The notes below the pieces were generated by a model. The model worked only from the letters and a program-made list of their open reading frames with translations. It was not told where the DNA came from and did not search any database. Positions 3,112 through 12,176 of a stretch of DNA of 29,661 nt are shown one piece after another. The stretch is from a virus. The position numbers and the translations under genes were made by a program. Each line of letters begins with the position of its first letter. Position 1 is the stretch's first letter. The stretch spans positions 1 through 29,661 of IMG/VR virus record IMGVR_UViG_3300028384_000564. One strand, given 5' to 3'.

Positions 3112-3485
3112 GGCGCTGCTTGTTGCTGTGGTTGCTGCCACTGTTGCTGTTGAGGGGCCGGTTGTTGCTGCCATTGTTGCTGTGGTGGTTGCTGTTGTTG
3201 CTGCGGCTGCATGTCCCGATCATTTGGAAACAGGTTCCAGGATCCGATCTTAGGCCAGTTGCGCGCATCATCTCCGCGCCGGGCTTTAATCTGCACGTTT
3301 ACTTTCAGCTTGTGCTGCACCATCAGCTGGTGGATCTGATCTATAGCCGCAAGAGCTTCCGGGTTATCCTTCATCTCTATTGGTTCGTTAATCCAGGCGG
3401 ATGCTGCCATGTCTACATTCTGACCGTTATCCATATAGCCTTGTATCTGTAACCGGCTGTTTCCTAGTTGTGGTTTGTTGCTCAT
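3099..3485 (-). CDS. Gln-rich-tailed protein of the recombination operon (ssDNA-binding-like)
   Basis: A protein of 128 residues. Residues 1-90 look like a compact beta-rich domain (MSNKPQLGNSRLQIQGYMDN, then KVNVQIKARR and NWPKIGSWNLFPND). Residues 92-128 are almost entirely Gln, Pro, Trp and Ala, ending in APWQR. A small folded domain with a flexible low-complexity tail directly behind an annealing protein recalls single-strand DNA-binding proteins, but I see no unambiguous OB-fold signature, so the role is inferred from context. It starts within an ATGA overlap with the annealing-protein gene. The tail may vary in length through slippage of its CAG/CAA-type codons. Confidence 0.7.
   Translation of the reverse strand: MSNKPQLGNSRLQIQGYMDNGQNVDMAASAWINEPIEMKDNPEALAAIDQIHQLMVQHKLKVNVQIKARRGDDARNWPKIGSWNLFPNDRDMQPQQQQQPPQQQWQQQPAPQQQQWQQPQQQAAPWQR
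3101..3212 (-). repeat. CAG/CAA-type low-complexity coding repeat
   Basis: This stretch is made largely of TTG/CTG triplets on the plus strand (CAA/CAG on the coding strand) with scattered CCA and TGG. It encodes the Gln/Pro/Trp tail of the gene at 3099-3485. The near-periodicity of three makes it prone to replication slippage. It also produces long open frames on the opposite strand and in a second minus frame; these are artefacts of the repeat. Confidence 0.7.
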
Positions 3486-4096
3486 AGCATTGCCTTTCTC
3501 TTGTTAAATTCTTGTTCAAGTTTCGCATAAAGATCCGGGCGATCTTCATTCATGCGGTTTAGCCCACTGTCGTAGTAGTCCTCCCATTGTTTCAGGTGCT
3601 CCAGGACAGTGATAGTCTTTAGTTCTGCAAGCCTCTCGTCAAGATAACTTTGCATACCATCATCTACCGCCAGGTGTTGCGGCATAGGAGATTGACGCTG
3701 AGGTGGCGGGGGCGGGGTTTGCTGATCGTCGTTGTGCGGCACATCTTCCCCGGCATAAATGTATAATCCCAGGCCATGCAGCGCGATTGCTTTTACCCAG
3801 CAACGCATCCGAGCATCGTTGATCTGCCTGGCGTTTGGGTTCTGGATTGCTTTATTGCTGTGATCCATTACCGGAAGCCACATCATATGGGTCAGCTCTT
3901 CAATCGTTACACTGACACGCACCTCTCTTGTGCCGTCTGGAAACACAACGTCCTCGAGGATCTCAAACGTTGCGCCAGGGTATTTGTCTTTGACCTGTTG
4001 CCAGGCCCATGACCAGGACAAGTAACTAAACCGCCCCTTCTTTTCTATTTTGTTGCCCACGTCAATGCCGGACAAATCTTTCCATGCTGTGCTCAT
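3482..4096 (-). CDS. DUF1071 single-strand annealing protein
   Basis: A 204-residue recombinase that anneals complementary single strands after exonuclease resection. The conserved block SYLSWSWAWQQ (24-34), the strand WLPVMDHSNKAIQNPNAR (73-90) and the signature MRCWVKAIALHGLGLYIYAGEDVP (97-120) are characteristic of DUF1071 (PF06378), a branch of phage annealing proteins. A proline-rich linker (about 126-135) precedes a helical C-terminal part. The start at 4096 is chosen for its GGAG ribosome site and ATGA overlap with the exonuclease; a longer in-frame start at 4156 lies inside that gene. Together with its neighbours it forms a two-component recombination system. Confidence 0.9.
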   Translation of the reverse strand: MSTAWKDLSGIDVGNKIEKKGRFSYLSWSWAWQQVKDKYPGATFEILEDVVFPDGTREVRVSVTIEELTHMMWLPVMDHSNKAIQNPNARQINDARMRCWVKAIALHGLGLYIYAGEDVPHNDDQQTPPPPPQRQSPMPQHLAVDDGMQSYLDERLAELKTITVLEHLKQWEDYYDSGLNRMNEDRPDLYAKLEQEFNKRKAML

Positions 4097-5082
4097 CTTA
4101 ATACTCCTGCTAATTTTTTCGCTCGGCGCAGCACGTCCGGGTGTAGGTCGCGCCACACAAAGCTGTCTCCAAAATGAGGATCACAGAGTTTTAATAATTG
4201 TTCTGTGTTTTCTGTGACCATCATTAGTTTTTCCCGGCGCACACACGCCGCGATAACATCTTGCAATGCATATTCTAACTGCTCAATCGTTGCCTCAAAC
4301 ACACGATAGCCTAACCGATTTGCGTAAACAATGCGAGGGATCTTGCCGGTGATGTGCCAATACCCGGCTATCTGCATCAGGTGCATCTGCTTTATATCTT
4401 TCGGCAAGCTGTTGGATCTCGGGCTGTCAGTATCAACGCCGGTATCCCATTGCGTCTTAAGCTCGACGGCTCCCTCCTGGTAATCTCCAAAGCCCAGGTA
4501 ATCTAGCTCGCAGCCTGGCAGCTGACCGCGCAGCTCAGTCTGCCCGATGATTTGGTTGGCACCCTGCATTGCTTCTTTCAATCCCGCATGAGCATTCTCG
4601 CAGACCAGCTCAAACTCGCAGTGTGCAATCTCATCGCCTTTCTTCAAAGCTTTACCGTCAGCTCCAAACCTAACTTTCTGACGGCCCTCGATCTGCGCTG
4701 CGGTTTTATCCTGGTCAATCCAGGATCCGGTTTGCAATCCAGCTAACACGTTCACTGCTTCACTGTATGCCTCAGATGGCATGGCGCCCTCGATCAGCAT
4801 GAGGTCGCAAAAGTATTCAACGGCCCGACCTGATGCCATGTTTATGTTGTCCTGGAATTGCGTCTTGCCGAGATAATCCTGGTAGTATCCGCCTTGCTCA
4901 AGCACGGCCTCTGCATTTGATTTGACACCTTCTGCCTCATCTCTTAGCACTTTCAATGCCTGGCTGCGCTCCGGTCGAATGATGCCCTTCTGAAAAAAAG
5001 TGTAGAAATCTGGGGTACTTGGCTGCGAATGGTGGTAATATCCCTTGCTGTACGCCCACTTTTTAGAATTACTTATCGACAT
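4093..5082 (-). CDS. PD-(D/E)XK exonuclease of the recombination module
   Basis: A protein of 329 residues of the RecB/Cas4/lambda-exonuclease-like class. The core is visible: GRAVE (85-89), CELDYLGFGD with catalytic D194, and AVELKT with E207 and K209, followed by the helix QMHLMQIAGYWHITGK that usually supports the active site. It would resect double-stranded ends so that the annealing protein, translated from an overlapping frame, can load. It is the first gene of the leftward operon, divergent from the regulator at 5155. A role in concatemer formation or in recombination with other phages is expected from the pairing. Alternatives are other Cas4-like nucleases of the same fold. Confidence 0.88.
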   Translation of the reverse strand: MSISNSKKWAYSKGYYHHSQPSTPDFYTFFQKGIIRPERSQALKVLRDEAEGVKSNAEAVLEQGGYYQDYLGKTQFQDNINMASGRAVEYFCDLMLIEGAMPSEAYSEAVNVLAGLQTGSWIDQDKTAAQIEGRQKVRFGADGKALKKGDEIAHCEFELVCENAHAGLKEAMQGANQIIGQTELRGQLPGCELDYLGFGDYQEGAVELKTQWDTGVDTDSPRSNSLPKDIKQMHLMQIAGYWHITGKIPRIVYANRLGYRVFEATIEQLEYALQDVIAACVRREKLMMVTENTEQLLKLCDPHFGDSFVWRDLHPDVLRRAKKLAGVLR

Positions 5083-9384: not shown

Positions 9385-9635
9385 TATTGTGCTCCTTCTA
9401 CTGCGTAACCTTCTTCATTGATGTAGCCCAACCGAACCTGGGCGTCCTCGACCTCGCGGTGAGCCATGCCTATGATGGCTTCCTGGCTGTCGTGCAAGTA
9501 ACGCCAAGTCCACAACAAGCCCATCAACTTGCCCCAGCGTTCGTAACCTCGAGGGGTCTGCTCGTCGCCGATCTTGACCATCTGAGCGTAACGCTCTGCC
9601 GCACGATTAATTTGATGACGTAACTCAGGTAACAT
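9384..9635 (-). CDS. unknown small protein, leftward operon
   Basis: An 83-residue protein from ATG 9635, which has AGGAG upstream; the frame is open to 9665, but that extension lies in the preceding gene. Helical segments (MLPELRHQINRAAERYAQMV and WGKLMGLLWTWRYLHDSQEA) and a short C-terminal acidic part suggest an all-helical small protein. It has no recognisable motif. Its neighbours on both sides are coupled, so it belongs to one leftward operon. Confidence 0.6.
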   Translation of the reverse strand: MLPELRHQINRAAERYAQMVKIGDEQTPRGYERWGKLMGLLWTWRYLHDSQEAIIGMAHREVEDAQVRLGYINEEGYAVEGAQ

Positions 9636-9637
9636 GA

Positions 9638-9787
9638 TTAAGCTCCTTCCATGTTGTTTGCCCACACAGCGTATGCCGCGTCCTGGCGTAACCGATTTTC
9701 ACTAACAGCGAACTGCATCCGCTGCCGAGGCGGGTAAGCGAACCAGGCGTATCCCGCCAATATCGCCGCTAAAAACACCACTGCCAT
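9638..9787 (-). CDS. 49-residue membrane-anchored peptide
   Basis: ATG 9787 is preceded by AAAGGA. The product begins MAVVFLAAILAGYAWFAYPP, a membrane anchor or uncleaved signal, and continues with a 25-residue polar helix (RQRMQFAVSENRLRQDAAYA). It is the first gene of the second leftward operon, downstream of the promoter at 9816-9844. The TAA is two bases from the next ATG. No homologue is known to me. An early membrane protein acting on the host envelope or on superinfection is possible. Confidence 0.55.
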   Translation of the reverse strand: MAVVFLAAILAGYAWFAYPPRQRMQFAVSENRLRQDAAYAVWANNMEGA

Positions 9788-9815
9788 CTCGATTCCTTTC
9801 TCCGCATCCATGCCT

Positions 9816-9844
9816 TACTTAGTACGTGTGACAGATACTGTCAA
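9816..9844 (-). promoter_or_regulatory. second leftward promoter with TGACAG-N3-CTGTCA palindrome
   Basis: On the minus strand TTGACA (9844-9839) and TAAGTA (9821-9816), 17 bases apart, precede the gene starting at 9787. The perfect palindrome TGACAG-ATA-CTGTCA (9829-9843) overlaps the -35 box exactly as in the element at 9059-9088. The -10 box is weak, so an activator or a relaxed -10 is possible. The agreement with the other copy is the stronger evidence. Confidence 0.62.
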
Positions 9845-9863
9845 GCCCTATCAGAGATATTTA

Positions 9864-9892
9864 TTGCAGCCTGTGCGCAAAACCGCTACATT
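9864..9892 (+). promoter_or_regulatory. candidate rightward promoter for the packaging/structural operon
   Basis: TTGCAG (9864-9869), a 17-base spacer and TACATT (9887-9892) resemble a sigma70 promoter about 110 bases before the small-terminase start. It lies back to back with the leftward promoter at 9816-9844, so the 214-base gap 9788-10001 would be a divergent control region. Each box matches consensus at four of six positions, so this is only a candidate. Confidence 0.35.
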
Positions 9893-10001
9893 TAGTGCAA
9901 GCCGCCAGATGTGCTCTATACACTGCTTTCACGTCCCCTGGTGGCTTTGCCTCAAACTGCTCGGCCTCAGGGCCGGGCTTCTTTGCAAAAGGATGCAACG
10001 C

Positions 10002-10436
10002 ATGAATAGCCGGACAGTCTCAGTCGAAATCATGGAACAGATCTGCGACCGATTAGCCGGAGGCGAAACGCTCGTAGACATCACCAACGAAAAGAAAATG
10101 CCCAGCTATCGCAGCGTCACGCGCGCAGTCCAGGCAGATGAGATCATCTGGGAGATGTACCGCAAAGCCAGGATCCTTCAGGCAGAATATTACGCAGACC
10201 ATCTCAACGCCCTGGCAATGGCAGAGCTGCCAAAGGTCGAAGATCCGAGAATGCTCAACGCAGAAGTGCAACGGCGCCGGCTCGAGATCGAGACACTCAA
10301 GTGGACAGCTGCGCGCAATCAGCCATTCGGGATCCGCGACAAGAAAGAGGATCAACCACAAGCGCAGACCTTCACAATCAGCTGGTCAGGTGGCGATACC
10401 GCCGTCAGTGGCGATGAAGAGGAGCTGGTGCATTGA
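10002..10436 (+). CDS. terminase small subunit (Sf6-like)
   Basis: A protein of 144 residues. Residues 6-40 form a helix-turn-helix (SVEIMEQICDRLAGGETLVD then PSYRSVTRAVQADEI), followed by long helices and the segment RLEIETLKWTAARNQP, as in the small terminase of phage Sf6 and relatives, which recognises packaging DNA and assembles as a ring. The length agrees (Sf6 gp1 is about 140 residues). The start at 10002 has AAAGGA upstream; the frame extends to 9810 but without coding character, and an ATG at 9993 is an alternative. A 289-base non-coding stretch follows before the small gene in front of the large subunit. Confidence 0.85.
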   Translation: MNSRTVSVEIMEQICDRLAGGETLVDITNEKKMPSYRSVTRAVQADEIIWEMYRKARILQAEYYADHLNALAMAELPKVEDPRMLNAEVQRRRLEIETLKWTAARNQPFGIRDKKEDQPQAQTFTISWSGGDTAVSGDEEELVH

Positions 10437-10507
10437 GGGGAAAGTGCGTGTCACGATACATTCTGTGTGACCGAGCTACGCGCGCGAGCCTCGATTTGCC
10501 CAGTGAT

Positions 10508-10561
10508 ATGCGATCAGCGCATGGCAGATCCGGCGCTCGATCCATGCAGTCAGCGCATGGC
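10508..10561. repeat. repeated hairpins sharing TCAGCGCATGGC
   Basis: The 12-base sequence occurs at 10514-10525 and 10550-10561, 36 bases apart. Each copy completes a different short inverted repeat: a 5-bp stem with 5-base loop at 10508-10522, and a 6-bp stem with 7-base loop at 10542-10560. Repeated, evenly spaced elements next to a terminase gene are typical of sites bound by small-terminase rings. Confidence 0.6.
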
Positions 10562-10584
10562 TGGCTAAGTTATTGTTTTTGCAC

Positions 10585-10602
10585 GATAAGATTATCCGAT
10601 AA
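10585..10602. promoter_or_regulatory. alternating GATAA/TTATC inverted repeats
   Basis: GATAA (10585-10589), TTATC (10592-10596) and GATAA (10598-10602) form two overlapping palindromes with two-base and one-base centres. AT-rich sequence with TCTATTATG follows at 10605-10613 and could hold a -10 box. This could be an operator or a promoter element for the terminase/head genes. The sequence gives no name for the binding protein. Confidence 0.35.
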
Positions 10603-10725
10603 GGTCTATTATGTTAAATTTCCGACACCGCCGACCCCCACCCTCCGAGATTTCGCCCGCGGTCTTGTAGCACGTAATATACCTGGTCAGCAGTATCTGC
10701 CTCTCGCACAGCCTGAGATCGCCCT

Positions 10726-10902
10726 ATGAACACCAGAAGCCTCGCCCTTATCGCCCACATCAACGAGCTGCGTAGGCTCGTCACAGAGGCTCCCAGCGCT
10801 TCTGAGCAATATGAGAGCGCTGTATTGTTGATTGACGTTTACGAGCGTATGCTTGCGGACGTAGGTTTATTGAACTTTGCGGATGAGGATACCCGGCATT
10901 GA
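10726..10902 (+). CDS. small helical protein between terminase genes
   Basis: A 58-residue protein, MNTRSLALIAHINELRRLVT..., largely helical, ending DVGLLNFADEDTRH. Its stop TGA overlaps the TTG start of the large terminase, which implies coupled translation and is the best evidence that it is real. No clear ribosome site stands before ATG 10726. I recognise no family; an accessory packaging protein is a contextual guess. Confidence 0.5.
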   Translation: MNTRSLALIAHINELRRLVTEAPSASEQYESAVLLIDVYERMLADVGLLNFADEDTRH

Positions 10903-12176
10903 CGCATATAGAGATCCCATATGAGCCGAGAGAGTTGCAGCGCAAGTTGCATGATGAGATGGCGGAGAAGCGCTGGGGCGTGGTTGTGTGCCACCGGCGC
11001 TTTGGCAAGACGGTGTGGGCTATTAATCATATCTTGCGTGATGCGTTAATGTGCCAAAAGCCTAACCCCCGGTTTGCCTATATGGCACCCACCTATCGCC
11101 AGGCGAAGAATGTAGCGTGGGATTATATAAAACAGTTTGCGGGTGCGATCCCGAACGTAAGGTTCCACGAGACTGAATTGCGGTGTGATCTGCCTACTGG
11201 TGCGCGGATCTCGCTGTTAGGTGCTGAGAACCCGGATAGCTTGCGTGGGATTTACCTGGATGGCTGCGTGATGGATGAGGTCGCGGACATGCCGGAGAAT
11301 GTGTTTCCGGAGGTATTGAGACCGGCGCTTTCTGATCGGAAGGGCTGGTGCGTGTTCGTCGGTACGCCAAAGGGGCATGATGCTTTCTTTGAGAAGTATG
11401 AGGAAGCTACGTCAAATGATGATTGGTTAGCGGCTGTATACAAGGCGAGTGAGACCGGGATCCTCGATGATGAGGAATTGGAAGCGGCTAAGGTTATGAT
11501 GTCTGCGGATCAGTATGCCCAGGAATTTGAGTGCAGCTGGAATGCGAATGTGCCTGGTGCGGTTTATGGTAAGGAGATGGAAGCGGCACAGGCGGAGGGC
11601 CGGGTTTGCAACGTACCCTACGACCCCTCAGTTCGGGTTGATACCTGGTGGGATCTCGGAGTTGGAGACAGTACCGCGATATTCTTTACCCAATCGGTAG
11701 GACGTGCTATACATGTTATAGATTTTTACGAAGCTAGGGGCGAGGGCTTGCCACACTATTGCAAGGTTCTTTCTTCTAAGAATTATTTGTACGGCGAGCA
11801 TAATGCTCCGCATGACATTGAAGTTCGAGAGCTTGGTAGTGGTAAGAGTAGAAGAGAGGTAGCGTGGGATCTAGGTTTGAATTTCCGGGTTGTTCCCAAG
11901 TTACCTGTCGAGGATGGGATCCATGCGGCGCAGATGTTGTTGTCGCGGGTTTGGTTCGACAGAGAGAAGTGTAAGCATGGTTTGGAGTGTTTGCGACAGT
12001 ATCACCGGGCGTATAACGAGCGCACTCGCAGCTTTAGGGCATCGCCTGTGCATGATTGGTCGAGCCATGCGGCGGATGCTTTTAGATATTTGGCGGTTGG
12101 CATCCGAGAAACGCGGGGCGGTGGTCGCGTTCCTCAGAAGCAAGCTATTATGGATTACGATCCTTTTGCGGCGTAG
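10899..12176 (+). CDS. terminase large subunit
   Basis: This 425-residue motor and nuclease of DNA packaging starts at a TTG (THIEIPYEPRELQ...) that overlaps the previous stop. The ATPase part carries a deviant Walker A, CHRRFGKT (31-38), the adenine-side motif YMAPTYRQAK (61-70), Walker B LDGCVMDE (120-127) and the coupling motif FVGTPKG (153-159). The nuclease part shows WWDLGVGDSTA with D252 and ends in HDWSSHAADAFRY with D393. Order and length are complete for a podovirus large terminase. It pumps DNA through the portal encoded at 12878-14491 and cuts concatemers. Confidence 0.95.
   Translation: MTHIEIPYEPRELQRKLHDEMAEKRWGVVVCHRRFGKTVWAINHILRDALMCQKPNPRFAYMAPTYRQAKNVAWDYIKQFAGAIPNVRFHETELRCDLPTGARISLLGAENPDSLRGIYLDGCVMDEVADMPENVFPEVLRPALSDRKGWCVFVGTPKGHDAFFEKYEEATSNDDWLAAVYKASETGILDDEELEAAKVMMSADQYAQEFECSWNANVPGAVYGKEMEAAQAEGRVCNVPYDPSVRVDTWWDLGVGDSTAIFFTQSVGRAIHVIDFYEARGEGLPHYCKVLSSKNYLYGEHNAPHDIEVRELGSGKSRREVAWDLGLNFRVVPKLPVEDGIHAAQMLLSRVWFDREKCKHGLECLRQYHRAYNERTRSFRASPVHDWSSHAADAFRYLAVGIRETRGGGRVPQKQAIMDYDPFAA

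Follow-up and report, generated by a model that had tools for sequence, protein, structure and literature searches.

Closest described systems

Among named phages, the best matches to the terminase large subunit (TerL) of the virus analysed here, a 29,661-base virus record from IMG/VR that we call the window, come from HTVC010P-type pelagiphages. Phages of this type (HTVC010P, Skadi, Lederberg, Greip and further ones) carry the same kind of TerL, with 55-57% identity in the close ones, and a small gene before it that is preceded by a dyad, a C-tract and a TATA box like those described below. Four Skadi isolates were assembled as circular contigs with a 125-bp repeat, and headful packaging was deduced for them, according to an excerpt of the report (PMC10504331); the same excerpt describes Skadi-1 as having no encoded RNA polymerase. 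A circular assembly is also given for the more distant phage P26218 (excerpt of PMC4657236). Our search of the open-licence literature found no earlier description of an element such as the one analysed here in this phage group.

Phage SPP1, which likewise has TerL and a small subunit (TerS), packages by the headful mechanism and has a single region at its terminase genes. In the excerpted account (PMC6316719), its pac overlaps the late promoters (PL1/PL2) and a ribosome-binding site, and its main late promoter combines a canonical -10 with an atypical -35 element, no copies having been found elsewhere. SPP1 pac overlaps the TerS start (PMC6316719, same excerpt), whereas the region of interest in the window lies after TerS and before TerL. 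SPP1 further differs in its host, Bacillus, and the pac function is that of SPP1, the gap in the window being a candidate only.

A constrained non-coding gap between the terminase genes

The window encodes a T7-type portal (PF12236, family profile search) and a TerS that passes the PF20901 (Sf6-type) family cut-off. The initial annotation had singled out a 289-base, repeat-bearing stretch between the terminase genes as unusual in a genome of overlapping genes and as a candidate packaging site. The length is exact, from the TerS stop at 10436 to the ATG of the next conserved gene at 10726, and terminase genes do lie on both sides, with TerS (PF20901, phrog_1482) before the gap and TerL (phrog_2) beyond a 58-aa gene, whose end overlaps the TerL start (10899). 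It is not the only long gap, as about 336 bases also separate a leftward ORF (to 9665) from TerS. The features are:

10002-10436, plus strand: TerS, terminase small subunit, 144 aa; phrog_1482 (E 2.8e-20), PF20901 Sf6_terminase (78.3 bits, cut-off 27)
10458-10488, plus strand: box A, ACATYCTG-N10-CTACGCGCGCGAG, about 22 bases past the TerS stop; aligned in 44 representatives
10508-10525, plus strand: first copy of the repeat of the initial annotation, containing the dyad ATGC-N7-GCAT (10508-10522)
10544-10561, plus strand: second copy, containing the dyad ATGC-N7-GCAT (10544-10558)
10592-10619, no strand assigned: box B, imperfect dyad ATAA-N6-TTAT; one arm is extended by GTTAA (in the window, the right one)
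10634-10662, plus strand: box C, C-tract ACCCCCACCCTCC and then a CGCCCGC-like block
10664-10684, plus strand: box D, AT-rich GTAATATACC (10674-10683), -10-like, of the RTAWTATACC kind
10726-10902, plus strand: small conserved gene, 58 aa, first of the TerL block, ATG start at 10726
10899-12176, plus strand: TerL, terminase large subunit, 425 aa; phrog_2 (E 5.5e-38), Terminase_6N above its cut-off

To sample relatives, viral contigs were searched with TerL and with TerS, and the best 80 loci of each search were used, several contigs occurring in duplicate. At least 139 loci, including the window and its own copy (L001), carried TerS, the small gene and TerL. Among the matches listed, the gap was present in all 139 of these loci and occurred as 93 distinct sequences; counted up to where the small-gene match begins, it spanned 221-353 bases, or 871 in one insertion type. 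In this type, represented by L057 and also found in L058, L139 and L140, a 173-aa ORF (711-1310 in L057) is inserted between TerS and box A, with boxes A-D intact downstream. The 58-aa gene gave matches at E ≤ 1e-3 in at least 148 loci of the BLAST set, window included; it had no PHROG and no family match, though it is conserved across the whole group.

Conservation of the gap was assessed in an alignment of 44 representatives sharing <93% identity, with L057 set aside for its insertion. Columns conserved at ≥90% numbered 49 in the gap, whereas the 330 bases ahead of TerS had 20 (82 rows). Synonymous sites of conserved codons vary widely, with a mean normalised entropy of 0.82 in 87 TerS genes and 0.68 in 87 TerL starts, indicating that the conserved gap columns are held by selection. 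The gap is hence under strong constraint at the DNA level, in line with the functional non-coding element that had been proposed. Four blocks are conserved, termed boxes A-D, which now stand defined as short, testable DNA elements; profile scans of the whole window gave a single high-scoring site apiece for boxes B, C and D.

That the gap might instead encode a short, overlooked gene or a structured RNA with a regulatory role appears extremely improbable. An ORF (10433-10729) does run open through the gap of the window, and another frame, whose product has the look of a small membrane protein, is open in many gaps of the TerS type 2 introduced below. However, gap length is not kept modulo 3, and variable sites fall evenly on the three codon positions in 22 equal-length gaps (46/47/47), compared to 29/14/132 in TerL; the gap thus carries no codon-position signal, which rules out the type 2 frame as a coding sequence. 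A structured RNA was discarded in turn, as an Rfam search of the gap returned no match above the gathering score and the whole gap folds in an ordinary manner when compared to shuffles (z = 0.08). The occurrence of box B in both orientations, described below, speaks against either version, and the regulatory RNA named as one alternative at the outset is left unsupported.

The repeats belong to an exchanged mid-gap segment

The packaging proposal had been built on TCAGCGCATGGC, which indeed occurs twice, 36 bases apart, within an 18-mer whose two copies agree at 16 of 18 positions. Among 400 dinucleotide-preserving shuffles of the gap, an equal 18-mer repeat arose in one and an exact 12-mer in none; the repetition is beyond chance. 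Both copies contain the dyad ATGC-N7-GCAT, and these are the only two such dyads in the 29,661 bases of the window (1.21 expected). The nested GATAA/TTATC palindromes noted alongside are also present, as GATAAGATTATC at 10585-10596 and the overlapping dyad of box B. The hairpins said to enclose each copy proved moderate only, with a fold z of -1.86 for the 66-base stretch and 10 of 200 shuffles folding as well.

Relatives, in turn, mostly do without these repeats. Among the matches listed, two exact 12-mers were found in 3 of the 93 distinct gaps (L001, the window's own, L002 and L083), and a single exact 12-mer in one further gap (L084). Two ATGC-N7-GCAT dyads with changed inner bases were nevertheless seen in 7 of the 44 representatives; retention of the dyads with altered inner bases suggests protein binding rather than chance.

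Comparison of near relatives separated the repeats from the terminase. L108 carries the repeats, while L110 has unrelated sequence in their place, at 97% TerS and 99% TerL identity between the two. In the same line, L134 and L135 are 99% identical in TerS and differ in mid-gap, and, conversely, L030 and L041 have mid-gaps of 93% identity with TerS only 68% identical. The repeats are freely exchanged while TerS and TerL stay unchanged, indicating that the terminase does not need them, and these three pairs rule them out as its site. Being absent from most relatives as well, TCAGCGCATGGC cannot be upheld as the packaging site; the repeats are a replaceable side part and not the heart of the region.

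The sequence between boxes A and B, the repeats included, is an exchangeable cassette that would supply two extra dyad operators in some members. We also weighed an inversion of the mid-gap along with box B, but the motif order, judged by eye, is unfit for a simple inversion; exchange of cassettes offers the simpler account. Near relatives that differ in their cassette or in the orientation of box B amount to natural mutants by which parts of the gap can be assigned to proteins.

Box B occurs in both orientations

Box B was found in all 93 distinct gaps among the matches listed, and in each of them the GTTAA extension, called when 4 or more of its 5 letters agreed, was carried by one arm and one only. 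The extended arm was the right one in 40 and the left one in 53 of these gaps, and the right in 21 and the left in 23 of the 44 representatives; the other arm was mostly of the GCGAA or ACGA kind. A scan of viral contigs with the box B pattern yielded mostly unrelated AT-rich matches and was not used for counts. Mapped on a TerL tree of 40 genes (four representatives with too short a TerL were left out), orientation underwent no fewer than 6 changes (5-7 across bootstraps), with 4 required by branches of good support. As cassettes are exchanged, these changes need not be separate inversions.

Most plainly, this means that the site functions either way round, as befits a protein operator, and it argues against box B as a directional signal. 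We suggest that box B would be an operator whose protein is indifferent to which way the dyad lies. Operators of the lambda type combine a consensus with a non-consensus half-site, and box B is likewise an imperfect dyad with one better half; it differs in being a single site with no repressor identified, and its operator role is predicted from sequence. The operator that the initial annotation had offered as an alternative to packaging is, with box B as the putative site, the best-fitting reading of the gap.

A replication origin with box B as the initiator site would share several of these properties, as box B is an AT-rich dyad in GC-richer surroundings, single-copy and orientation-free. 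The GC skew, however, follows gene strand without a further turn at the gap, no initiator gene is tied to the gap, and the gap heads late genes and does not lie among replication genes. We regard an origin as very unlikely.

Boxes C and D as a proposed activator-dependent late promoter

In all 44 representatives, the distance from the start of box C to the end of box D is 51 or 52 bases (34 and 10 cases, respectively). We propose that boxes C and D would constitute a promoter core, in which the -10-like box D is located just before the gene start and the C-rich box C takes a fixed position upstream of it, with no ordinary -35 element. With such a block in place of a -35, the promoter probably needs a phage-made activator. 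The main late promoter of SPP1 offers a parallel, with its canonical -10, its atypical -35 and its lack of copies found elsewhere (PMC6316719). The gap would accordingly be the control region of the late block led by the 58-aa gene and TerL. On balance, and with slightly better than even confidence, we take the gap to be a late-operon control region composed of operator B and an activator-dependent promoter core C-D. We infer the transcription start, the activator, operator binding and any overlap with packaging initiation.

Several observations temper the promoter reading. A sigma-70 scan of window positions 9600-11000 returned no promoter site, leaving the -10-like element only, and no activator gene was identified for the predicted late promoter. 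The conserved stretch in box C is longer than one activator site usually requires, which counts against a promoter, and a conserved single-copy element would equally mark a site where packaging or replication begins. A promoter for a single-subunit RNA polymerase was rejected, as PF00940 had no match in 12 records, a weak argument given that the controls were also without a match.

A B-C-D-like arrangement recurs in cultured pelagiphages

Directly before the late block and on its strand, B-C-D is found in the window and in 10 of 12 cultured relatives. In these 10 HTVC010P-type or related phages, the small gene and TerL are preceded by a C-tract and a TATA-rich box D, spaced 41-45 bases from each other, and a B-like dyad (GATAA-N-TTATC) is situated upstream. 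In 8 of 13 records, a stricter pattern, TACCCC-N20-32-TATATA, had this place as its sole match. The small gene of the cultured phages, about 62 aa, occupies the same place but is not similar, by eye, to the 58-aa gene. HTVC028P and HTVC106P had no box D match, and in both TerS adjoins the small gene. HTVC028P carries TAATACGATTAATTATAGG before its small gene (L166, 186-204), which we take to resemble a T7 promoter.

The phrog_1482 profile detected TerS in all 12 cultured records; it also matched in 4 of 14 control genomes. With the records taken as circles, 2.4-4.2 kb separate TerS from the small gene downstream of it in 10 of the 12, indicating that B-C-D belongs with the TerL block and not with TerS. 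The HTVC010P type further differs from the window in the leftward genes that intervene between TerS and TerL, in its AT-rich genomes and in that box A and the ATGC dyads were not recognised. In HTVC010P, a strong terminator-like hairpin (297-328) is positioned upstream of the B-C-D-like element, which argues that the TerL block needs a promoter inside the gap. On the promoter reading, a late transcript of this phage would start just after its TATATATATACATGGG block.

Box A follows the TerS type

Box A, of the general form ACATCCTG-N10-CTACGCGCGYGAG, follows the TerS stop at a distance of about 20-46 bases. A 9-mer scan located its CTACGCGCG exactly at 10476 and 29485 of the window. After sorting TerS into types 1 and 2 by identity to the window TerS (L006, with a partial TerS, was set aside), the core of box A was CC in 67 of 67 type 1 gaps and TTGACAG-like in 25 of 25 type 2 gaps, hence tracking TerS type in 92 of 92 typed gaps among the matches listed. 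Nine type 1 gaps carried a mid-gap of the type 2 kind and still had a type 1 box A. On the TerL tree, box A core and TerS type each changed four times, and jointly in three of three independent pairs. These patterns fit binding of box A by TerS, and box A is the best pac candidate within the gap; given how near box A is to the TerS gene, linkage alone would also explain the association.

A pac in the gap, where TerS would bind box A and perhaps box B, TerL would cut nearby and headful packaging would proceed rightward, is a possibility that we hold to be rather doubtful. The covariation of box A with TerS type, the nine gaps with the other mid-gap included, argues for it, as do the three joint changes and the Sf6 kind of the window TerS. 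Synonymous variation along TerS is even, with window means of 0.76-0.88 and no reduced patch, so no pac hidden inside TerS is apparent. Complementarily, assemblies circularise with junctions elsewhere, as for permuted genomes, and boxes B, C and D are single in the window and beside the terminase genes, as a single site would be. On the other hand, linkage suffices over such a short distance, and three pairs cannot be significant. B-C-D stays by the TerL block in the cultured relatives though TerS is kilobases off, and the 173-aa ORF of the L057 group separates TerS from box A. The directional signal expected of a pac is also at odds with the two orientations of box B, which a directional start should not tolerate; in the alignment, the orientation of boxes A, C and D is constant.

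As the SPP1 region serves as both late promoter and pac (excerpt of PMC6316719), which also speaks for a pac here, the two readings need not exclude each other. By its sequence, this non-coding gap of an abundant sea-phage kind looks like a late-gene switch and may aid the start of packaging. That one element would unite late promoter and packaging start, with an A core coevolving with TerS, an orientation-free operator in box B that retains a single strong arm and a cassette exchanged in the manner of a specificity or immunity module, we judge to be unlikely.

Contig ends and genome termini

A cos site or fixed terminal repeat inside the gap is a further candidate, and the initial annotation had allowed for a cos-proximal element. 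Among 34 complete box A contigs, 7 end within 361 bases after box A and none in the next 890, and a few contigs end at the C-tract. The ends in the gap are scattered over its whole length and not stacked, however, and assemblies may have been interrupted by variable DNA or C-runs. The 54 left and 33 right contig ends in 4 kb around the terminase genes, which are those of metagenome assemblies and not of virions, formed no spike, and full-size contigs run through the gap and end elsewhere. In the same line, the distance between box B and the contig ends varies widely among 11 contigs of 32-45 kb, and the ends of four contigs in this size range had one exact 99-base overlap, far from the gap, and no exact overlap in the other three. 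TerL is located at four different distances from the record end in the four Skadi isolates with the 125-bp repeat (excerpt of PMC10504331), making this repeat more likely an assembly overlap. We read the contig ends after box A as assembly breaks in variable DNA; they are still the sole result leaning towards an end in the gap. With unstacked ends and full-size contigs passing through, a cos-type end in the gap finds no support and seems very unlikely.

Further observations

Rhodoferax phage P26218 (L161, about 2360-2400) and ctfPj964 (L342, about 1205-1275) have in common a different non-coding block around GGTTCTCTGCGAGCA. Located before the small gene and TerL, this block is, by eye, perhaps a counterpart element. 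In phages Venkman and ctXG6705, whose TerS is of a different family, C-tract motifs were also noticed by eye after that gene.

Upstream of TerS, the window contains a perfect dyad, TGACAGATACTGTCA, at 9829-9843 and a terminator-like hairpin at 9959-9978, immediately before the TerS start. Each is partly conserved in relatives, and the two could form an attenuated or antiterminated TerS leader. On the opposite strand, window 3482-5082 (minus) encodes a single-strand annealing protein of the Sak type (PF06378) along with a neighbouring product that is weakly similar to phrog_1706.
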